A DNA stretch of 64,000 nucleotides from Candidatus Latescibacterota bacterium. Lineage in GTDB: Bacteria; Latescibacterota; UBA2968. A model generated the notes under the pieces. It ran no database searches. It saw nothing but the letters and a program-made list of their open reading frames with translations, and was not told the DNA's origin. The DNA is taken from assembly GCA_022823725.1 (NCBI GenBank), contig JAJEHL010000002.1:62001-126000 (forward strand). Direction: 5' to 3'. Made by a program: the position numbers and the translations under genes. Of the stretch, positions 5,443 through 15,404 are shown in pieces (position 1 is the first letter of the stretch; every line of letters begins with the position of its first letter).

Positions 5443-6801
5443 ATGTCTCAGAAACGACCGAATATTCTCTATATCATGGACGACCAGCACCGATGGGATT
5501 ATCTGGGATCAATGGGCGCTGAATTTGTCAAAACACCCAATCTGGATCGGCTGGCCGAGCGCGGCATTCAGTTCACACAATGTATAACAAATTGTCCCGT
5601 ATGCGCGCCATCTCGCATTGCAGTCGCATCGGGCCTGCAACCCGTTCGCCTGGGCGCACTGGGTAACAACAACTTTCTGCCACGCACAGCCACAACGTAT
5701 TATCAACGGCTACGCGACCACAATTATTACGTAGGCTGCGTGGGTAAACTGGATCTGGCAAAACCCGATGGGTATAATGGACGCGACGGAGACAGGCCAG
5801 CTACGTACATGTGGGGGTTCACGCATCCCGTTGAAGTCGAAGGCAAAAGCCATGCTGGGAAGAGCAGAATTCCTCAAGGACCCTACAATCATTTTTTAAA
5901 AGAAAAAGGATTACTCGATGCATTTGTCGATGATTATTCAGCGCGAAGTGGTCCCAAAACAAGTCATGATTCGGTACTGCCGACCGAAGCATTTGCAGAT
6001 ACGTACATCGGACAGCGATCTGTACAGTGGATCGAAGACATACCCGACGATTTCCCCTGGCATCTGTTTGTGAGTTTTGTGGGGCCACACAGCCCATTTG
6101 ATCCCCCGACTGAATATGCCGATCGATATCGCAACGCCGAAATGCCAGATCCGATTCCAGCAACGAGCAAAGGGAAACCCAAAAATATTGAAAATAGCAG
6201 AAAAGGTCTGACCGAAGCTGAAATCCTGAAGACGCGACAGCAATATTGTGCGTATATCGAGCTAATTGACGCTCAGATCGGCGAAATATTAGACGCGGTT
6301 GAAAAGCGGGAAATGATGGACAATACGTACATCATTTTTGCCAGCGACCACGGCGAAATGCTCGGCGACCACGGGCTATATGGCAAGAGCGTGGCCTATG
6401 AGGCTTCTTTGCGCGTGCCGCTTATTGTCGCAGGACCTAACATTGAAGGAGGCAGGGTATCGGATGAACCCGTAGAATTGATCGATACCAACGCGACGAT
6501 CTGCGAATGGGCCGGGTTGCCACCACAGGAAAATATCGACGCAAAATCACTGGGACCCGTCTTGAGAGGCGAGACGGATGATCACCGCGCAGAAGCGGTC
6601 AGCCAAATTCGCAATTTCAGGTTGATCCGCACAAAAACACACAAACTGGTCGAAAACCAAAACGATATGAATGAGCTTTACGACCTGGAAAATGATCCCA
6701 ATGAACTGAACAATATCGCCCGTGAAAATCCGGATATCGTACAGAAACTCAGCAGTCGGTTAGGCGAGAGATTCACAGAAGGCGCCTGGTTGCGCGGTTG
6801 A
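5443..6801 (+). CDS. Sulfatase family protein (type I, formylglycine-dependent)
   Basis: A 452-residue type I sulfatase. The start is the ATG at 5443 behind GGAGAACCT; 23 upstream codons overlap the previous gene. The N-terminal metal site is ILYIMDDQHRWDYLG, and the formylglycine motif CAPSRIAVASG (C-x-P-x-R) is intact near residue 52. FASDHGEMLGDHGLYGK supplies the second metal-binding aspartate and histidine. No signal peptide is seen, which suggests a cytoplasmic enzyme or substrate import first. A maturase (FGE or anSME) is needed and is not in the window. The substrate is unknown; phosphonate monoester hydrolases share this fold. Confidence 0.9.
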   Translation: MSQKRPNILYIMDDQHRWDYLGSMGAEFVKTPNLDRLAERGIQFTQCITNCPVCAPSRIAVASGLQPVRLGALGNNNFLPRTATTYYQRLRDHNYYVGCVGKLDLAKPDGYNGRDGDRPATYMWGFTHPVEVEGKSHAGKSRIPQGPYNHFLKEKGLLDAFVDDYSARSGPKTSHDSVLPTEAFADTYIGQRSVQWIEDIPDDFPWHLFVSFVGPHSPFDPPTEYADRYRNAEMPDPIPATSKGKPKNIENSRKGLTEAEILKTRQQYCAYIELIDAQIGEILDAVEKREMMDNTYIIFASDHGEMLGDHGLYGKSVAYEASLRVPLIVAGPNIEGGRVSDEPVELIDTNATICEWAGLPPQENIDAKSLGPVLRGETDDHRAEAVSQIRNFRLIRTKTHKLVENQNDMNELYDLENDPNELNNIARENPDIVQKLSSRLGERFTEGAWLRG

Positions 6802-6824
6802 GGAGGGAAATCTTTAATAGCTGT

Positions 6825-6995
6825 TTACGCAAACATCAGCCGTCCTTTTGGCTCGGGAATGGGACGACCTAAATTTTTCGCCGTCTCAATCCATTCTTCG
6901 ATAATGACATCAACATTTTGCAATGCCTCATAATAAGTCGAACCATCTGCTGCACAGCCCTCAAGTTCCGGAACCTCAGCGATAAATGCTTCTTC
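6825..6995 (-). pseudogene. hicB antitoxin fragment (5-prime truncated copy)
   Basis: The last 56 codons of a HicB-like antitoxin, reading EEAFIAEVPELEGC to GRLMFA-stop, with no start codon: upstream the frame continues into ATT/ATA codons and a stop at about 7025. The block 6807-6995 matches 10100-10288, next to and within the intact hicB, at about 181 of 189 positions by eye, so one copy derives from the other. The break at 6995 lies just beside the promoter of the following plus-strand module, suggesting that insertion of that module removed the start of the gene. Confidence 0.8.
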
Positions 6996-7013: not shown

Positions 7014-7051
7014 TTGACATTTTTATTAACACAACTATATTGTTGTGTTAA
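7014..7051 (+). promoter_or_regulatory. Promoter with embedded 26-bp palindromic operator
   Basis: A -35 box TTGACA (7014-7019), a 16-bp spacer and a -10 box TATATT (7036-7041). The -10 box is the exact centre of a perfect palindrome, TTAACACAAC-TATATT-GTTGTGTTAA (7026-7051), with 10-bp arms. A dimeric repressor bound here would block RNA polymerase. The XRE-domain protein encoded two genes downstream is the obvious candidate, which would make the pair autoregulated, as is common for toxin-antitoxin-like modules. The gene start lies 88 bp downstream. Confidence 0.8.
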
Positions 7052-7138
7052 GGATTGTCAATATCTTGTACTTTATTGGATTCAGCTTTGGCGGGAAGCT
7101 GCTACCCGTCGGAATTTGTCAGAAGATACGGCGGATCT

Positions 7139-7588
7139 ATGATACCACTTTTTGATTCTAACGGATGCTTACCCGTCGGCATACATTGGACAACTTGGGA
7201 AAAATTCAAAATCAGATTCGGTGTGACCGCTCATAGGCGCAGACTCTTAGATGGCCTGGAGCAAGGATTAAAGTCTTTGAAAGCGGCTGGCTGCTCGACT
7301 GTTTACATAGATGGAAGTTTTGTTACAGACAAAGAAATCCCTGGAGATTTTGATGCATGCTGGGATGACAGCGGGGTTGACCTGGCATTACTTGATCCCG
7401 TTCTGTTAAACTTCGATAATCAACGGGCGGCACAAAAAGCCAAATATCGTGGAGAATTCTTCCCTGCTCATCTTGCGGCAGAAGCTACGCCTCCCTACAG
7501 GGTTTTTCTCGATTTTTTCCAGACCGATAAAGCTACGGGCAATCCCAAAGGGATTATAGCCATAGACCTAAGAGGATGGCAGATATGA
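7139..7588 (+). CDS. Nucleotidyltransferase-like protein (DUF6932-like)
   Basis: A 149-residue cytosolic protein starting at ATG 7139 (MIPLFDSNGCLPVG). The core YIDGSFVTDKEIPGDFDACWDD resembles the G-S-x(n)-D-x-D signature of minimal nucleotidyltransferase folds and matches proteins I know as DUF6932; the assignment is by memory of the family. It lacks membrane segments. Its stop codon overlaps an ATG of the next gene (ATGA at 7585-7588), so translation is probably coupled. Together with the following XRE-ImmA protein it forms a two-gene module behind an operator-bearing promoter, a layout typical of toxin-antitoxin or defence modules. Which partner is toxic is unknown. Confidence 0.7.
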   Translation: MIPLFDSNGCLPVGIHWTTWEKFKIRFGVTAHRRRLLDGLEQGLKSLKAAGCSTVYIDGSFVTDKEIPGDFDACWDDSGVDLALLDPVLLNFDNQRAAQKAKYRGEFFPAHLAAEATPPYRVFLDFFQTDKATGNPKGIIAIDLRGWQI

Positions 7589-9033
7589 TCAAAAACGCGA
7601 GACAATATCGGATCACCAAGGCCCAGATGAGGAAGTTTGAGGGTGCTTTGGCGGAGTTGGCTCAAAATAAAAATAAGAATATTCATCCTCTACTTCAGAA
7701 AGCTCATCAGGATGCATTGAGAAGTCAACATGAGGAACTCCGTATGCAGTTGGAGGAATACGACGCGCTTGTAGAAGGTAAGCGCAATGTTCTCGAACGT
7801 CTTTCACTTACTGATCTTCCTCGTGCTCTCATTCAGGCTCGGATTGCTATGGGGTTGTCTCAGAAAGAACTTGCCCATCGTCTCGGACTCAAAGAGCAAC
7901 AAATACAGCGATACGAAGCAAATGAATACGCGACTGCCAATCTTGAACGATTGAAAGAGATCGTAGAAGCTCTGGGTATTGAAATGCAAGAGGATCTTTT
8001 TCTTTCCTCGGACCACTATTCACTGGAAGAAATCTTCAGTCGAATGAAAAAATCTGGTTTTGAGAAGAATTTCATATTCAATCGATTACTGCCGCGAGAT
8101 TTAGTCGCATATATAGAGCAAGAGAATGAAAAGAGCCAAACCGGAAATGTACCATTGCAAGTTGCTACAGCAATTGCTCGCGTATTTGGATGGTCTCCTA
8201 CTCTGATCTTTGGTTCTCGTCCATTAATAATGGATCCTACTATTGCGGGAACTGGAAGATTTAAAACTCCTGTATATGCAACAAGAACCAGATTAAGTGC
8301 CTATACCATGTTTGCCCATATTTTGGGTCTGCATCTTCTTGATACAACGCAGGATTTGAAACCACAAAAAGTGCCTACAAATGGTCTCAAAGTGAGAGAG
8401 GAGATACTATCTTCCTATGGATCTGTCACATTCGAAAATGTGCTACGCTATGTATGGGGCTTAGGTATACCCGTGTTGCCGTTGCGTGATCCAGGCGCGT
8501 TCCATGGTGCCTGTTGGCGGATAGAATATCGGAATGTGATCGTACTGAAACAAGGGACGGATTCGTTAGCGCGTTGGCTATTCGATCTTTTGCATGAACT
8601 TGCCCATGCGGGCGAAGATCCCGACAGCGAAGAATATGCTATGGTTGAGACTGATCCAATAGAGAGGCAAGACTCTGACGAGGAGGCCGCTGCGAATAAG
8701 TTCGCTGATGATGTCATGCTTGCAGGACGCGCGGAGGAACTTGCTGAAAAATGTGTTGAGGCTGCTGAAGGAAAAGTAGAATGGTTGAAAAGGGTAGTTC
8801 CCGAAGTGGCTGAAAAGGAGGGTGTAGAGGCAGATGCTCTTGCCAATTACATGGCCTATCGACTGTCGTTACAGCAGTTAAATTGGTGGGGAGTAGCCAG
8901 CAACCTGCAGAAAACAGATCCTCTGCCCTGGGTCACCGCTCGGGATATACTACTCGAACACGTAGATCTTAGTTACCTCAACGAATTCGATAGAGATCTA
9001 CTAATGCGTGCAATAGATGATGGTCTGTATTGA
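7585..9033 (+). CDS. XRE-family regulator with ImmA/IrrE-type HExxH domain
   Basis: A protein of about 482 residues; the ATG at 7585 overlaps the previous stop as ATGA, and an in-frame ATG at 7576 is the alternative. Residues 1-70 are charged and probably coiled coil. An XRE helix-turn-helix follows at about 75-130 (ALIQARIAMGLSQKELAHRL, IQRYEANEYA). The C-terminal half carries LLHELAHAGED, a zinc metallopeptidase HExxH motif as in ImmA/IrrE proteins, which cleave or regulate repressors. The protein could repress its own promoter at 7014-7051 and be inactivated on a stress signal. Partner and module role are inferred from gene order. Confidence 0.8.
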   Translation: MIKNARQYRITKAQMRKFEGALAELAQNKNKNIHPLLQKAHQDALRSQHEELRMQLEEYDALVEGKRNVLERLSLTDLPRALIQARIAMGLSQKELAHRLGLKEQQIQRYEANEYATANLERLKEIVEALGIEMQEDLFLSSDHYSLEEIFSRMKKSGFEKNFIFNRLLPRDLVAYIEQENEKSQTGNVPLQVATAIARVFGWSPTLIFGSRPLIMDPTIAGTGRFKTPVYATRTRLSAYTMFAHILGLHLLDTTQDLKPQKVPTNGLKVREEILSSYGSVTFENVLRYVWGLGIPVLPLRDPGAFHGACWRIEYRNVIVLKQGTDSLARWLFDLLHELAHAGEDPDSEEYAMVETDPIERQDSDEEAAANKFADDVMLAGRAEELAEKCVEAAEGKVEWLKRVVPEVAEKEGVEADALANYMAYRLSLQQLNWWGVASNLQKTDPLPWVTARDILLEHVDLSYLNEFDRDLLMRAIDDGLY

Positions 9034-9035
9034 GG

Positions 9036-10043
9036 ATCCGCGCAGTTTTGGAACCGGATGAGCGGAAGTGGCCAGTGTATGATACCGAATCACCCGTGGG
9101 ATTGATGTCGCCGGATTATACGTCGGAGAAAATTGATCAGGTTTTGTTTAGCAAAGCAAAGGCGTGGCTGAATACGCATTTTGAAGAGCGAAAGGATGAT
9201 CCTTTCTTTTTGTATTTTCCATCGTCGGCAATCCATCGTCCGTGTTTGCCATCCCATAAGTGGATTGGAAAAAGTCAGGCAGGATTGAGAGGTGATAAGG
9301 TTGCAGAATTAGATGATATTGTCGGGCGTTTGTTGGGAGAATTGGAAAAACACGGCGTACTCAATAACAGGCTGGTGATCTTTTCAAGTGATAACGGTGG
9401 GCTTGCAGGCGATTCCGAGCAAGCATTGCAGGAATTGGCGGACAATGGGTATGGTCAGATTTGGCCGTCCCAGCAATTGTTGGGCAGAATCGATGAAGGG
9501 ATTCACAACGTACGCGGAAGAAAACATCTGACGTATAGCCATCGGTGCAATGGAGCGTTTTTTGGTTATAAAACAGATATATATGAAGGCGGACACCGCG
9601 TACCTTTTTTAGCACGCTGGCCAGGTAAGGTGACAGCGGGAACAGTTTGCGATGAGACGATTTGCATGACGGATATGCTGGCGACTGTGGCGGCACTTTT
9701 GGGTGAGACTTTGCCTGAAGATGCGGGTGAGGACAGTTATAATATCTTGCCATTGATATTGGACGAAGAAATTGAGAAACCAATTCGAGAGGCGACAGTC
9801 CATCACTCAGGTCAGGGGATGTTTGCAATCAGGAAGGGCGAGTGGAAACTGGTATTGGGACAAGAATCGGGGGGTACTCAGACGGATCGCACGGTTGAGA
9901 CTGAAGGGCAGCTTTACAATATGGAAACAGACAAAGAAGAAACCACGAATGTATATGAAGAACATCCTGAAGTGGTAGCAGAACTGACGGCCTTATTGGA
10001 AAAGTATGAGCGCGAGGGACGGAGTGCACCAGTGATGGCTTAA
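9036..10043 (+). pseudogene. Sulfatase lacking its N-terminal catalytic half
   Basis: About 335 codons matching the C-terminal two thirds of an arylsulfatase A-like enzyme, from EPDERKWPVYD through SPDYTSEKIDQVLF, FFLYFPSSAIHRPCLPS, IFSSDNGG and the C-terminal LYNMETDKEETTNV. The N-terminal part with the first metal aspartates and the C-x-P-x-R formylglycine motif is missing. The similarity begins right at the stop codon of the XRE-ImmA gene (9031-9033), so the 5-prime part was evidently replaced by that module. The only start is a TTG at 9030 overlapping that stop; no good ribosome site is seen. Even if translated, the product cannot be an active sulfatase. Confidence 0.85.
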
Positions 10044-10117
10044 GAAGATGATGTAATTTATCAGGTTGAAAATAGGAATGTACAACAATGACCAGGATTG
10101 AAACCTTTGATAGCTGT

Positions 10118-10345
10118 TTACGCAAACATCAGCCGTCCTTTTGGCTCGGGAATGGGACGACCTAAATTTTTTGCCGTTTCAATCCATTCTTCGATAATGA
10201 CATCAACATTTTGAAATGCCTCATAATAAGTCGAACCATCTGCTGCACAGCCCGCAAGTTCCGGAACCTCAGCGATAAATGCCTCGTCTTCCTCACTCCA
10301 ATAAATGATGATTTCGTATTTGTGAGTAGTAGTCAATGGAAACAA
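10118..10345 (-). CDS. HicB-family antitoxin-like protein
   Basis: A 75-residue protein with the HicB half-RNase H fold pattern: YEIIIYWSEEDEAFIAEVPE, then AGCAADGSTYYEAFQNVDVIIEEWIETAKNLGRPIPEP. It lacks the C-terminal DNA-binding extension found in some HicB antitoxins. No hicA toxin gene is visible on either side, so it is an orphan or belongs to a solitary HicB-like group. It lies 12 bp downstream of the decayed restriction-subunit fragment on the same strand. A truncated, about 96 percent identical copy is present at 6825-6995. Confidence 0.85.
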   Translation of the reverse strand: MFPLTTTHKYEIIIYWSEEDEAFIAEVPELAGCAADGSTYYEAFQNVDVIIEEWIETAKNLGRPIPEPKGRLMFA

Positions 10346-10675: not shown

Positions 10676-10749
10676 ACGCGCTGTGCTGTTGCCCTATCCA
10701 AACGTCGTACATCAGATTGAGCACGATCCGAAAATACCACATCATACAT
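10669..10749 (-). pseudogene. RelE/ParE-type toxin N-terminal stub
   Basis: A 26-codon frame, MYDVVFSDRAQSDVRRLDRATAQRVS read in two halves (MYDVVFSDRAQSD and VRRLDRATAQRVS), that looks like the first strand and helices of a RelE/ParE toxin and then stops. Its ATG overlaps the stop of the upstream frame (TAATG), the coupling typical of antitoxin-toxin pairs. The rest of the gene is gone and Res sequence follows at once, which marks a deletion from within relE to near the end of res. With so few residues the family call is tentative. Confidence 0.55.
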
Positions 10750-11889
10750 TACCAATTAAGCCCCAATTCTTCGGCGACTTTCTCGGCAGGGGTAGTCTTT
10801 CCACCGGCTTCCACATCGGCGATGGTCTGCTGGAGGTCTGCGACAAATTCGTCGCGCAATTCCAACCCCTCGTCGGGATCCTGTCCGTAGAACTCCTCGT
10901 TTAATTCCTTGTCTTCCGCGCTTATGCCAAATTCCTCGTCGTCAATCTCCGAAAGATTCACATACAACTGATTCTTGTCCAGCAGTTCCGCGAGCAATTT
11001 CTTCTGTTTGTCCAACCCGTTTTCGCTTTCGCCGATGGCGATAAAGTCATTGACCGCATCTTCTGGGATCTCAGGATTTACGTACCAGTTCAAGAACGAG
11101 TTTTCGGCAATGTCTCTCCAGAGTGCCTCAAGCTCTTTCGAGGATTCCGCGGCTTGAATTTTATCCATATAGGCTTCGTTGTATTGCATCAGTTCACAAT
11201 AGACAAAGTCGCCACCGCCCTTCCATGCGACGGATTTGGAGATACCGCCAGTGTCGTATTCAATTTCTTCAGATAGCTTATTCTCCACCTTTATTCTTTT
11301 TTCGACAACTTTCTTCAATCTCTCAAGCGTGATGGTTTCCACATAATCCATCTCCTGGTCGCCAATGTGAAGGAAAATAATCCCTTCATTCTTCAACAAC
11401 ACTCTTGCCACTTCCAGCCGATTCCTCATAAACGTCAGCCAGCTTGAATGTTTGAAATTATCGTTATATCCAAAGCCATCACCATTGATGTTATAGGGCG
11501 GGTGAATATAAATCAGCTTTACCTTGCCATAGAACTGCTGTTTGAGCGTGTGCAATGCCACCAAGTTATTGCCCTTGATAATCAGGTTTTCACGGATCGT
11601 ACCACTTTCATCCCGTTTGAACCCCATCACGTCCTCTTCGCCATCTACCGTATAGCGTTTCCATTGGGTCAATACTTTCGGATCAAATAGCCGGTCAATT
11701 TCATCCTGTGCCAGAATTTCATTGAAGAAAATCTCTTTGCGCTTTTCCTCTGCCTTTGTCTGTCCACCTTCCAATACGCAATCCTTATAAGGCCATACCA
11801 GGGACACCTCGCCTCGCTCCTGTAGAAATTTATCATCGATATTCAAACCAATTCTATTACGGAATCGGGTATATGAATCGGCGAGAAAG
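10749..11889 (-). pseudogene. Type III DNA methyltransferase (Mod), 3-prime part, with RelB-like tail
   Basis: This is the larger part of a type III modification methyltransferase gene cut by the IS element at 11890. It runs from LADSYTRFRNRIGLN through VWPYKDCVLEGGQ and LIYIHPPYNIN to the Mod C-terminus (LDKNQLYVNLSEIDDEEFG). The catalytic motif DPPYN is altered to HPPYN. The frame jumps from IIFLHIGDQE directly to MDYVETITLERLKKV, so an internal segment carrying the FxGxG cofactor-binding motif appears deleted. After the normal Mod end it continues in frame into LELRDEFVADLQQTIADVEA and KTTPAEKVAEELGL, which resembles a RelB-type antitoxin. Activity as a methyltransferase is very unlikely. 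Confidence 0.75.
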
Positions 11890-11894
11890 TGGAG

Positions 11895-12746
11895 TTACCC
11901 CGCTTTGGTGGATAGTGTAGGACTTTCAACCCAATCACCTTTTGCCATCAGTTTTTCATAGGTGATGGGCGATTGGTACTTCAGTGCAGAGTGTCTGCGG
12001 TGTGGATTATACCACCCTTCAATATACTCGAAGATCGCCAGTTTGGCTTGGCTATGATTGGGGAAGCTGTGGCGGTCTATCAATTCGCACTCAAGGGTGG
12101 CAAAGAAGCTTTCACACAAGGCATTGTCAAAGCAATCGCCAACCGATCCAACAGAGGGTCTGACCTCCATTCTTGCACAGCGTTGACCAAAGGCATAAGA
12201 GGTATATTGAGAGCCTTGATCTGAGTGATGGATGACCCCATCTGGTCGGCGGTTCCAAAGTGCCATATCCAGAGCATCTAAGACCAGTTGCGTCTTCAAG
12301 TGTGAGGCCATTGCCCAACCAACTACTCGTCTGGAGAAGGCATCCATGACAACAGATAGATACAAAAAGCCAGAGTAGGTGGGTATGTAGGTAATATCCG
12401 CGACCCACAGCTTGTTGGGATTATCAACCCTAAAGTCTCGCTTGACCAGATCAGGGGCTTTCTCGTCTGTGATAGACCGGTATGTTGTCAGGATACCTTT
12501 TCTTCGGCTGACACCACGTATATTGGCTTGTCGCATCAGTCTTGCGACCCGTTTCTTGCTGGTGTGGACACCTACTTCGCGCAGATCCTGAAAGATACGA
12601 GGTGCGCCATAGGTCCCATTGGAACGCTGGTGAAAGGCCCTTATTTGTTCTGTCAACTGTTCATCGTCCTTTGCCTTTTGAGATAAAGGTCGATGACACC
12701 ATGCATAATACCCACTGGTGGAGACACCCAGCACTCGGCATAGCAT
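11895..12746 (-). CDS. IS3-family transposase orfB (DDE integrase)
   Basis: The catalytic half of the IS3 transposase, 283 residues from the first ATG; the natural fusion product starts further upstream by -1 frameshift from orfA. It contains the HTH_21 region (NGTYGAPRIFQDLRE) and an rve integrase core with the DDE triad in WVADITYIPT, HHSDQGSQYTS and NALCESFFATLECEL, ending with WYNPHRRHSALKYQSPI. It cuts and joins the element ends. The frame appears intact, so the element may still be active. Confidence 0.95.
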   Translation of the reverse strand: MLCRVLGVSTSGYYAWCHRPLSQKAKDDEQLTEQIRAFHQRSNGTYGAPRIFQDLREVGVHTSKKRVARLMRQANIRGVSRRKGILTTYRSITDEKAPDLVKRDFRVDNPNKLWVADITYIPTYSGFLYLSVVMDAFSRRVVGWAMASHLKTQLVLDALDMALWNRRPDGVIHHSDQGSQYTSYAFGQRCARMEVRPSVGSVGDCFDNALCESFFATLECELIDRHSFPNHSQAKLAIFEYIEGWYNPHRRHSALKYQSPITYEKLMAKGDWVESPTLSTKAG

Positions 12747-12775
12747 GGTGATCGGATAGTTGGCCTGATGCGCCT

Positions 12776-13087
12776 TTATGTATCTGAAGATTTGGGGGGT
12801 ATCGCATCGGTCTCCGCTGCGAACCAGGCCGCGGCTTTTGCAAGGATCTCGCGCTCTTGCCGTAAGCGTTTATTCTCTCTGCGAAGCCGTTGAAGTTCTT
12901 CCCGCTCACGACTGGTCAACCCATCGGCTCGACGGCCTTCATCGCGGTCTGCTTGACGCACCCAGGCACTGATCGTCTGGGCTGTCGGCTCAAACTCTTT
13001 GGCCAAATCGTTGGCACTACGACCCGATCTGACCAGATTGACCATTTGCTGGCGAAATGCTGCTGGATATGATCTTTTTCTGACCAT
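12776..13087 (-). CDS. IS3-family transposase orfA (HTH protein)
   Basis: A 103-residue protein with an N-terminal helix-turn-helix (YPAAFRQQMVNLVRSGRS, LAKEFEPTAQTISAWV) that binds the element ends and a C-terminal leucine zipper (EREELQRLRRENKRL). The frame runs past a C6A3 tract (plus-strand TTTGGGGGG at 12791-12799) where a -1 shift would move the ribosome into the orfB frame (PQIFRYIKAHQ) and make the OrfAB transposase. Other IS3 members use A-rich slippery sites, so this heptamer is a candidate only. Confidence 0.9.
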   Translation of the reverse strand: MVRKRSYPAAFRQQMVNLVRSGRSANDLAKEFEPTAQTISAWVRQADRDEGRRADGLTSREREELQRLRRENKRLRQEREILAKAAAWFAAETDAIPPKSSDT

Positions 13088-13142
13088 TTTGGACTCCTTT
13101 CTCTGAAAGAGATAAGTTGTCCACTAAAACGGGTCAAGTCCA

Positions 13143-13382
13143 AAAGTTCTTATCAGAAACGTATTCAATAAAGGTGTTGAAAATGAAAATCCAGTGGCCT
13201 TCGATCTCGTCAAAGAATTTTGCCTTGATATCCGCATCGCCAAGCAGCAATCTCACAAGGTCCTGGTCAATCTTCCAAGCTCGATCTGTCACTGCCGCCT
13301 TAACCAACTCGCCTTCGTCGTCAATGAAACGGGCGTCGGTTTTGAGCAATTCGATCAATTTTTCGTTAAAGTTTTTCGGCAT
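13143..13382 (-). pseudogene. Type III DNA methyltransferase (Mod), 5-prime part
   Basis: The first 80 codons of the mod gene interrupted by the IS element, starting at ATG 13382 (MPKNFNEKLIELLKTD). It continues DEGELVKAAVTDRAWKIDQD and ends IEYVSDKNF at the insertion point. This matches the N-terminal helical region common to type III Mod proteins. Together with the part at 10749-11889 the ancestral reading frame would encode about 458 residues, shorter than the roughly 600 usual for the family because of the internal deletion noted there. Confidence 0.75.
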
Positions 13383-13516
13383 GGTACAATCCTTGAAGCG
13401 GTGAGATAGGCAACCTGTGGACGCGGTCACGCCAGCGCGGATACTTGATCTTTAGCCTATCCAACAGCCGGACGTTGAAGGCGATTTCGTTGGCCTTGGA
13501 AATGGTCTGAGAAAGG
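13383..13516 (-). other. Spacer with gene-fragment-like frame
   Basis: This gap between the mod start and the 181-residue gene holds a minus-strand frame without a start codon, reading ISKANEIAFNVRLLDRLK and YPRWRDRVHRLP. Its composition is protein-like and it runs into the mod start. It may be the end of a lost gene or an old N-terminal extension. I cannot assign it. Confidence 0.3.
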
Positions 13517-14062
13517 TCAGTCTATTTGAATGACATCATCCGAAAGTTTTCGATCCAACTCAGTTGACGGAATAATATCGACCTCTGTCAGCATCTCTTT
13601 CTTCAATGTACTTTTTAGAAAGTTTCGCAGCTTGTCTCTCAGGTGGTCCAGCAGAACAGAAGAATCCGACGAATCCGTAGTCGTTATGAGCCAGTAGTGA
13701 AATTGATTCTCTGGCAAAAACGCTTTTACTCGCGCCCACAAACTGGACAGGCGACAAAGGACCAACATGGAACCGTAAAGTTTTAGGCGGTGCTCTCTGA
13801 GAACGTTTTCGTAAAGCAAGGCAGTTTGGTCTTCGTCGTTGAGGTAGGCATGTCTTTGTTTGAAATCAACTATCGTCCACCCTAAATCGGTTTCCTCAAT
13901 CAAAACGACGCTTTGTCTATCCTTGCTGACCGTCACATAGTCACAGCACTCACAGGTTCCAAGCCCGGCGGCGTGGCGCATGTCGTTTGCTGTGTTGTCC
14001 ATCCGATATGCTTTGAAGCCGCTGGCAGACTCAATATCCTCAGCAAATTGGGATAAGCGCAT
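13517..14062 (-). CDS. Uncharacterised ATPase partner, possible nuclease fold
   Basis: A 181-residue soluble protein of no family I recognise. Its ATG at 14062 lies 1 bp after the stop of the AAA ATPase gene, so the two are translated together. The N-terminal part contains CECCDYVTVSKDRQSVVLIEET, which has the spacing of a PD-(D/E)xK nuclease core (aspartate, then hydrophobic strand with acidic residues) but lacks the lysine. The C-terminal half is charged and helical (LLDHLRDKLRNFLKSTLKKE). In ATPase-plus-small-partner defence systems such as Septu or PARIS the partner is the effector nuclease; by analogy this could be one, but no direct evidence is visible. Confidence 0.6.
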   Translation of the reverse strand: MRLSQFAEDIESASGFKAYRMDNTANDMRHAAGLGTCECCDYVTVSKDRQSVVLIEETDLGWTIVDFKQRHAYLNDEDQTALLYENVLREHRLKLYGSMLVLCRLSSLWARVKAFLPENQFHYWLITTTDSSDSSVLLDHLRDKLRNFLKSTLKKEMLTEVDIIPSTELDRKLSDDVIQID

Positions 14063-14063
14063 T

Positions 14064-15404
14064 CTACAACCCCGTGATGTAGAGGTCGGAGAAAGGCTGA
14101 GTCAACGATTGTTTGGCCTCTGCCATCACCGCGTCCATATCGTCATTCCATTCAGCATCTGGCGGAAACTTATTCAACCTGACGAGTGCCCGGTCTTCCG
14201 GTTCTTTCTTTAGATGCACCTCAAGCCACTTGAGAATCGTCATGCTATGGGTGGAGATCACCACATGTCCCCCCTGACGAGCCAACTCAAAAAGGAACTC
14301 CGCCATCTCAACCTGCCAGGCTGGATGCAGATTCGCCTCGGGTTCATCAATGAACAGAAAAGAACCGGGTTCTAATGCCCCGCGTTCAATGAGCAACGCC
14401 AGCATACCCATGTTGGCAACCCCAGCCGACGTAAGAGAGAGCGGAAATGACCCACCACTTGTTTGAAATTCGAGATCGCCCGCCTCACTCAGCACAATTT
14501 TCCCTCCAATCGCATTGTGCAGACCTTTGTGAATCTCGGCGAAAGGATGATCAACGCGCTGTCTTCTGAGAGCGACGACCACATCGTAAAAATAAGATGG
14601 CACTCCGTTCAACGAGACCGAGGAACGCGAGTCGAGCTTAATTGATTCCAGAGGATTTTTCAGCTTCCAATAGAGTTGGGACTCTAAATAGAAGGCTTTG
14701 GGAAATGATTGCGGATTTTGAACGATTTGCGGATCGGGACTGAACTCGAATTGGTTTGCTTCTTCCAAAACCCCTAATCCCTGGACGCTGAAAGACAAGG
14801 GGGAATCACTGACTCCTTTGAGCTGTGAAATATCATATACTTGAAAATTTCCGCTTACATTCTGGCTAAACTTCCAGGCCCATCCGAAAGCAATCACCAG
14901 TTTCTCATTTCTGAGAGTCTCTTCCAAATTATCTATGCTATCTTTGATGTATCCGTGAATCTCTAATACCTCGAAACGGTCTTCGTCTCTTTCAATGTTG
15001 TTTTTCAGGGTTTGGAGATGGGTATTCATCGCCTCAATTTCTGCTATTATTTCGGGTTGTACCGACTTGAACACATCGAGTTCATTTTGGCCCACACGAC
15101 TTGACGCCGCTTCCCGCAAGAGAGAATCAATTTTTTGCAATGCCCTTCTAATAATAGACTTGGCGCGTTCTCCTGCCGCACCAAAATCTCTATTCAATTC
15201 TAAGATGCGGTAAATCACACTGGCGTATGCTTCAAAACACACGAGCGCAGGATTCGCGTTTATTGCCTCAAGCATCGAATAGAGCATCTTCGCCACAAAA
15301 GTCTTGCCCGTATTGTTTGGCCCGGCGAAGACCGTGAACCGGCCCACCTGGATGGTTGCCTCGTCAATAGGCCCAAAATTCTGAATTTTTAACTCGAGGT
15401 CCAT
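14064..15404 (-). CDS. AAA15/OLD-like ATPase of a putative defence pair
   Basis: A 446-residue ABC/SMC-like ATPase of the AAA15/AAA21 type. Walker A is FAGPNNTGKTFVAK at about residue 30, the signature-like helix is TSAGVANMGMLALLIERG, Walker B is FLFIDEPEANLHP and the H-loop is VVISTHS. Between them lies a helical insertion (about 90-190) like a short SMC arm. No TOPRIM domain follows, unlike OLD nucleases. The start has a strong ribosome site (GAGGAGGG). It lies 54 bp after gatB on the same strand and is followed immediately by the 181-residue partner and the damaged type III modification genes, which points to phage defence. Confidence 0.8.
   Translation of the reverse strand: MDLELKIQNFGPIDEATIQVGRFTVFAGPNNTGKTFVAKMLYSMLEAINANPALVCFEAYASVIYRILELNRDFGAAGERAKSIIRRALQKIDSLLREAASSRVGQNELDVFKSVQPEIIAEIEAMNTHLQTLKNNIERDEDRFEVLEIHGYIKDSIDNLEETLRNEKLVIAFGWAWKFSQNVSGNFQVYDISQLKGVSDSPLSFSVQGLGVLEEANQFEFSPDPQIVQNPQSFPKAFYLESQLYWKLKNPLESIKLDSRSSVSLNGVPSYFYDVVVALRRQRVDHPFAEIHKGLHNAIGGKIVLSEAGDLEFQTSGGSFPLSLTSAGVANMGMLALLIERGALEPGSFLFIDEPEANLHPAWQVEMAEFLFELARQGGHVVISTHSMTILKWLEVHLKKEPEDRALVRLNKFPPDAEWNDDMDAVMAEAKQSLTQPFSDLYITGL

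Follow-up and report, generated by a model that had tools for sequence, protein, structure and literature searches.

A DUF6932 nucleotidyltransferase-like gene and its Xre-ImmA partner beneath a cross-phylum operator: a candidate toxin-antitoxin-like switch in a Latescibacterota genome

A gene encoding a small DUF6932 protein and a gene encoding an Xre-ImmA protein form an overlapping pair in a Candidatus Latescibacterota bacterium, downstream of a palindromic operator that recurs at related loci across phyla. We interpret this module as an autoregulated toxin-antitoxin (TA)-like switch, in which DUF6932 would act as effector and the Xre protein as an antitoxin-repressor that its own protease domain would inactivate, a reading that we regard as an even call. 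For DUF6932, a family of unknown function, the module supplies a partner conserved among relatives, a probable fold and a role open to testing. The following features are given in coordinates of the window, the whole stretch of 64,000 nucleotides that was analysed.

7014-7019, plus strand: -35 element TTGACA of the module promoter
7036-7041, plus strand: -10 element TATATT, after a 16-nt spacer
7038-7043, plus strand: alternative -10 element TATTGT, in the register conserved in relatives, after an 18-nt spacer
7026-7051, no strand: operator TTAACACAAC-TATATT-GTTGTGTTAA, 12/13 pairs, two perfect 10-nt arms
7050-7138, plus strand: 89-nt leader from operator to start codon, unlike most relatives, which have none
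7139-7588, plus strand: ORF1, DUF6932 (PF22014) nucleotidyltransferase (NTase)-like protein, 149 aa, assigned from Pfam, conserved residues, AlphaFold, Foldseek and hhalign
7313-7318, plus strand: GS (G59, S60) of ORF1
7346-7348, plus strand: D70 of ORF1
7352-7354, plus strand: D72 of ORF1
7454-7456, plus strand: E106 of ORF1, likely third carboxylate
7585-9033, plus strand: ORF2, Xre-ImmA protein, 482 aa, overlapping ORF1 by ATGA at 7585-7588
7585-7830, plus strand: N-terminal helical domain of ORF2 (MIKNxRQYRITKAQ...), kept with and without the ImmA domain
7831-7992, plus strand: Xre-type HTH of ORF2 (HTH_3, E=6e-13), HipB-like in Foldseek
8518-8721, plus strand: ImmA/Peptidase_M78-like segment of ORF2, with HELAH at 8593-8607
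9034-10043, plus strand: 3' part of a sulfatase gene whose homologue is intact in the sister genome G002 (506 aa)

Gene pairing and operator among relatives

The first-pass annotation had described a 149-aa gene, an HTH/HExxH gene and an ATGA overlap between them, and all three are borne out (7139-7588; 482-485 aa, from ATG 7585 to 9033; 7585-7588). The start of ORF1 at ATG 7139 is backed by homologues, and that of ORF2 at ATG 7585 is conserved among them, with a further in-frame ATG at 7576. The pairing recurs in other genomes, as that proposal required, and among close relatives is nearly universal: 322 ORF1 relatives emerged from a genome scan, and at all 80 of the loci taken for pairing (the best 80 of 322), which span many phyla, an Xre gene lies directly 3' of the DUF6932 gene. 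The overlap is mostly of 4 nt (ATGA) or 13-14 nt. Six loci that seemed to lack an Xre gene were rejected as exceptions, their overlapping ORFs being ORF-calling artefacts. This result covers close relatives; the distant PF22014 proteins L011, L112 and L144 have no such partner annotated or adjoining. The pair was also found on one viral contig; searches of viral contigs returned one ORF1 relative, and phage records no ORF1 match. Among plasmids, no close DUF6932 relative without Xre was seen in 28 records, most of them read off matching hit lists, and Xre without DUF6932 was found in 17 records (eight inspected), an asymmetry explained in part by Xre proteins that have diverged and may pair with something else.

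Three ORF2 architectures are represented among 90 loci: a short Xre protein (68), the type-1 form of the window (18) and a PD-lambda-2-like form (4). In most relatives, then, the Xre partner is only 134-180 aa long and carries neither a protease nor another enzymatic domain; no widely shared downstream genes were found at the short-Xre loci, which by sequence look like a stand-alone TA pair. The DUF6932 tree leaves the frequency with which the protease fusion arose ambiguous (11 changes needed, 2 forced).

The promoter joins TTGACA to TATATT with a 16-nt spacer (match 11/12), and over its -10 box lies the palindrome that had been annotated as perfect across 26 bp. The palindrome is real but imperfect, with 12 of 13 positions paired, because the pair 7036/7041 is T/T; in relatives, moreover, the conserved -10 is TATnRT and lies two bases beyond the box that had been annotated. 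A search for the palindrome with up to 3 mismatches found a single occurrence in the window and 0 in 100 shuffles, and its core (7028-7049) fits the cross-phylum consensus at 19/19. That consensus, AACACAACnnTATnGTTGTGTT, stands upstream of DUF6932 at 59 of 89 loci and at 17 of the 18 type-1 loci, compared with 1 in 884,401 background positions and 1 in 4,550 shuffled upstreams; having been written after the first alignment was inspected, it yields descriptive counts, though the contrast with background is large. An exact TTGAC lies 16-20 nt 5' of TATnRT in 37 of the 59 operator-bearing loci. In most relatives the operator directly abuts the DUF6932 start codon, from which a leaderless mRNA is predicted. 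The window's genome as a whole contains no second exact operator site, and the operator is therefore dedicated to the module locus.

These findings strongly back the autoregulation first suggested for the window, with ORF2 as the predicted operator-binding protein, and, as in a type II TA module, the two genes overlap and lie behind an operator of autoregulatory type, to which binding is predicted from sequence. The proposal of a TA module gains in the same way from gene order, overlap, operator, plasmid carriage and the fact that DUF6932 was never seen without Xre; its other half, that the kind is undescribed, fares worse (see below). An operator so nearly constant across phyla gives a rare view, at the level of sequence, of how switches of this kind are retained when they are transferred. 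The operator also holds a promoter-like site on the minus strand (7034-7061, TTGACA/TATAGT, 11/12) directed toward a hicB fragment.

The two proteins and the proposed switch

ORF1 is a member of DUF6932 (Pfam E=3e-38, 131.8 bits against a cut-off of 27). Its residues G59, S60, D70 and D72 are invariant in 51 aligned sequences and conform to the motif GS-x(9)-DxD, and E106 is almost invariant in the same set; E106 aligns with the D of KYAVDAYF in L112 and is offset at that point in the L011/L144 alignment. The AlphaFold model, predicted from an alignment of the window copy and the genome-scan loci, is confident (pLDDT 94.9). Foldseek against PDB returned mostly Pol-beta-type NTases, the minimal NTases 2rff, 1no5 and 7ae9 among them, at a best E of 0.25 and with none at E<0.001; matches to NTases among viral models were weak only. 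By hhalign, the window's DUF6932 subfamily alone is not significantly similar to minimal NTases (P=0.32), the window family combined with distant DUF6932 members reaches P=0.0024, and the distant members alone reach E=8.6e-6 across the GS, DxD and third-acid region. A sequence profile of ORF1 did not find an NTase in PDB, and neither AbiEii nor other NTase profiles in Pfam match ORF1. The earlier NTase-like assignment is borne out in that the NTase residues are conserved and the fold is supported indirectly, by AlphaFold, Foldseek and hhalign; NTase ancestry is probable, and catalysis putative. Two of the distant relatives, L011 and L144, are long proteins with a DUF6932-like N-terminus, the remainder of which reads in L011 as an alpha/beta hydrolase. 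At a further locus (L005:1465-2141) a distant DUF6932 gene precedes one for a 69-aa protein without an HTH, whose resemblance to the Xre partner is confined to the N-terminal domain.

The HExxH domain of ORF2 is a divergent ImmA/CapP-like domain. Its Pfam score for ImmA/Peptidase_M78 is 20.1 bits, under the cut-off of 22; HExxH is present in all 13 aligned type-1 members, and the top PDB matches of the protein in Foldseek are CapP (7t5t; probability 1.00, E=0.017), IrrE (3dti), PprI (8sln) and HipB. CapP and PprI are proteases that cleave repressors upon activation by single-stranded DNA (PMC10904395, PMC13373217). The N-terminal helical domain is presumably the part that binds DUF6932 and acts as antitoxin.

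As we picture the switch, ORF2 dimers, probably complexed with ORF1, would sit on 7026-7051 and block RNA polymerase, while the N-terminal domain of ORF2 would keep the NTase inactive. A signal would then activate the HExxH domain; analogy with CapP and PprI suggests single-stranded DNA in this role, perhaps arising from phage infection or damage. The active domain would cut the Xre part of the same molecule or of a copy next to it, and cleavage would both derepress the promoter and release DUF6932, which would add nucleotides to a cellular target (tRNA, by analogy with MenT) and so halt growth. The Xre-ImmA switches that phage-defence systems use would thereby gain a partner of NTase-like type.

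The polarity of the pair may be the reverse, given that in PD-lambda-2, the nearest tested system, the Xre-peptidase proved unexpectedly toxic (PMC9519451). The Xre-ImmA protein might itself inhibit growth, with DUF6932 as its antidote, either by binding or by attaching a nucleotide to it in the way that MntA modifies HepT. For PD-lambda-2, toxicity of the Xre-peptidase B by itself and rescue by A were found (PMC9519451), a PD-lambda-2-like subtype is paired with DUF6932 in L008, L010 and L014, and NTase antitoxins are known from HEPN/MNT systems (PMC7641770). However, the Xre partner of most relatives is a 134-180 aa protein free of enzymatic domains, and this, like the plasmid asymmetry, Xre without DUF6932 and never the reverse, weighs against this polarity, which we consider unlikely.

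The type-1 operon and the local history of the window copy

Missed by the first-pass annotation, the protease-fused subtype normally heads a larger operon. A DUF4186 gene lies downstream in 17/17 other type-1 loci, the window copy being the sole exception, and a radical SAM gene is found in 16 of those 17; genes for a DPPW protein, an ASCH protein and a P-loop kinase occur in many of them, where the contig reaches. On plasmids the radical SAM gene is present in exactly the 7 records with a type-1 ORF2; on viral contigs neither the radical SAM gene nor the distant L005 protein was found. PADLOC matches to the operon are weak only: the kinase hits VakA at 7e-8, and the radical SAM protein hits pVip at 7e-4. 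The radical SAM protein carries CxxxCxxC, and the DPPW protein is methyltransferase-like. At one locus (L018:4202-5885, minus strand) an AbiEi/AbiEii pair adjoins the type-1 operon in divergent orientation.

In the usual type-1 form, the switch that we favour would also turn on the downstream DUF4186, radical SAM, DPPW, ASCH and kinase operon. More tentatively, we suggest that type-1 loci, when complete, constitute an anti-phage or stress system so far unrecognised, in which a promoter-proximal NTase toxin and an Xre-ImmA antitoxin capable of self-cleavage stand guard over an operon for making or installing a modified nucleotide, such that cleavage arms the operon and frees the toxin, and the window holds a stripped guard; this is possible but doubtful. 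The six-to-seven-gene form, with no or weak PADLOC matches for most of its genes, is a concrete candidate system.

The same operon could be taken to mean that the pair is not a TA module at all: the Xre-ImmA protein would be a CapH/CapP-like regulator head that represses the radical SAM operon and self-cleaves to free it, DUF6932 would be a co-regulator or part of the pathway, and the window copy would be an orphan regulator. DUF4186 in 17/17 other type-1 loci, radical SAM, ASCH and kinase genes in most of them where the contig reaches, exact co-occurrence with the radical SAM gene on plasmids and CapP as the top fold match of ORF2 all fit such a regulator. Yet 68 of 90 loci lack protease and operon and still keep the DUF6932-Xre pair, often with the operator; the pair therefore has a function of its own, and we find the regulator-only account rather unlikely.

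No operon genes or operon remnants are present in the window, and the radical SAM gene is absent elsewhere in its genome (best E=0.02). The window copy appears to have kept the switch, with the operon lost or never brought along in transfer. Its surroundings, first annotated as a defence island, amount to a small, partly decayed pocket with sulfatases on one side and the housekeeping genes gatBA on the other; the pocket contains a split type III methyltransferase gene, an AAA_15/AriA-like ATPase with its partner, a hicB gene and a hicB fragment. Relative to sister genomes, the module, together with a duplicated hicB fragment of 195 bp, has taken the place of the 5' part of the second sulfatase. 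The fragment, which lies between the module and sulfatase 1, is a second copy of the 3' part of the hicB gene at 10118-10345 (minus strand), the two forming a 195-bp direct repeat (95%) at 6801-6995 and 10094-10288. The methyltransferase gene (10749-13430) lies in two pieces parted by an IS3-like transposase pair (11895-13087). Beyond it, 13517-15404 encodes the AAA_15 ATPase, which is AriA- and HEC-02A-like, and a 181-aa partner, a possible defence pair.

Decay of ORF2 is evident elsewhere in the genus, where the window ORF2 is the only full-length type-1 copy found. In seven same-genus genomes only the first 63-85 codons of ORF2 are left, at another site and without an adjacent DUF6932 gene; these relics (L167-L173) sit fused behind a different HTH gene, the last codons of which resemble the end of DUF6932. 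In the window's genome the ORF2 segment is absent from the corresponding second site. In G004 ORF2 is frameshifted and lies at the sulfatase's opposite end. Given this decay in sister species and the unusual 89-nt leader, the window copy may be on its way out. It could even be a relic, no longer functional, of a system that the genus is losing, a reading with which the missing operon and the displacement of the sulfatase 5' part also agree; but neither ORF is truncated, no invariant residue is missing from them, and the operator agrees with its consensus at 19/19, and we hold this to be quite improbable.

Relation to known systems

The first-pass annotation had taken the module to be of an undescribed kind, and this does not hold, because Xre-ImmA fusions have been described in pairs with many toxins (PMC2701414, PMC9519451, PMC10440598) and DUF6932 already stands in Pfam as a family, with a weak match of ORF1 to a PADLOC candidate, PDC-M63A (E=3.1e-10). 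PDC-M63A is, however, listed in PADLOC as a candidate without mechanism, and no other PDC-M63 components were present among the proteins scanned. Xre-COG2856 fusions, the same fused kind of antitoxin, were predicted with upstream RelE or PIN toxins by Makarova et al. 2009 (PMC2701414), in the available portion of which no NTase partner of such a fusion was seen. DUF6932, the NTase-like partner, the cross-phylum operator and the radical SAM operon are absent from the literature searched, itself a partial collection.

RosmerTA (RmrA-RmrT; PMC10440598) likewise uses an Xre-ImmA antitoxin as a hub for varied toxins, but the window ORF2 resembles RmrA models mainly through the HTH; membership was rejected, the best RmrA matches covering the HTH and the match in the ImmA region being weak (PDLC03943, E=0.0013). 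CapH/CapP and DdrO/PprI (PMC10904395, PMC13373217) also place an Xre repressor and an ImmA/IrrE-type metalloprotease over an operon; there they are two separate proteins, whereas here they are fused, and an NTase-like first gene is not described for those systems. In MenAT and AbiE (PMC10435456) an NTase-fold effector adjoins an antitoxin, but ORF1 is only about 150 aa long, has no AbiEii/NTase Pfam match and is paired with another antitoxin class.

PD-lambda-2 (Vassallo et al. 2022, PMC9519451) shares a small upstream partner of an Xre-peptidase fusion, and the plasmid subtype of L008 and L014 consists of DUF6932, a PD-lambda-2_B-like gene and a Beta/PD-lambda-2_C-like gene (in L014, E=1.5e-74 and E=1.8e-37, respectively). 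The first gene is HigB-like in PD-lambda-2 and DUF6932 here, however, and membership of the window copy was rejected: it has neither a HigB-like A gene nor a C gene, and its ORF2 matches PD-Lambda-2_B at only E=1.8e-5. L008, L014 and L082, each with DUF6932, a PD-lambda-2_B-like gene and a Beta gene, represent a PD-lambda-2 variant in which the HigB-like gene has been exchanged. On an Acinetobacter pittii plasmid (L010), DUF6932 and a PD-lambda-2_B-like gene lie between a Tn7-like tnsE and an IS30 beside blaNDM-1, and two further Acinetobacter plasmid records match ORF1.
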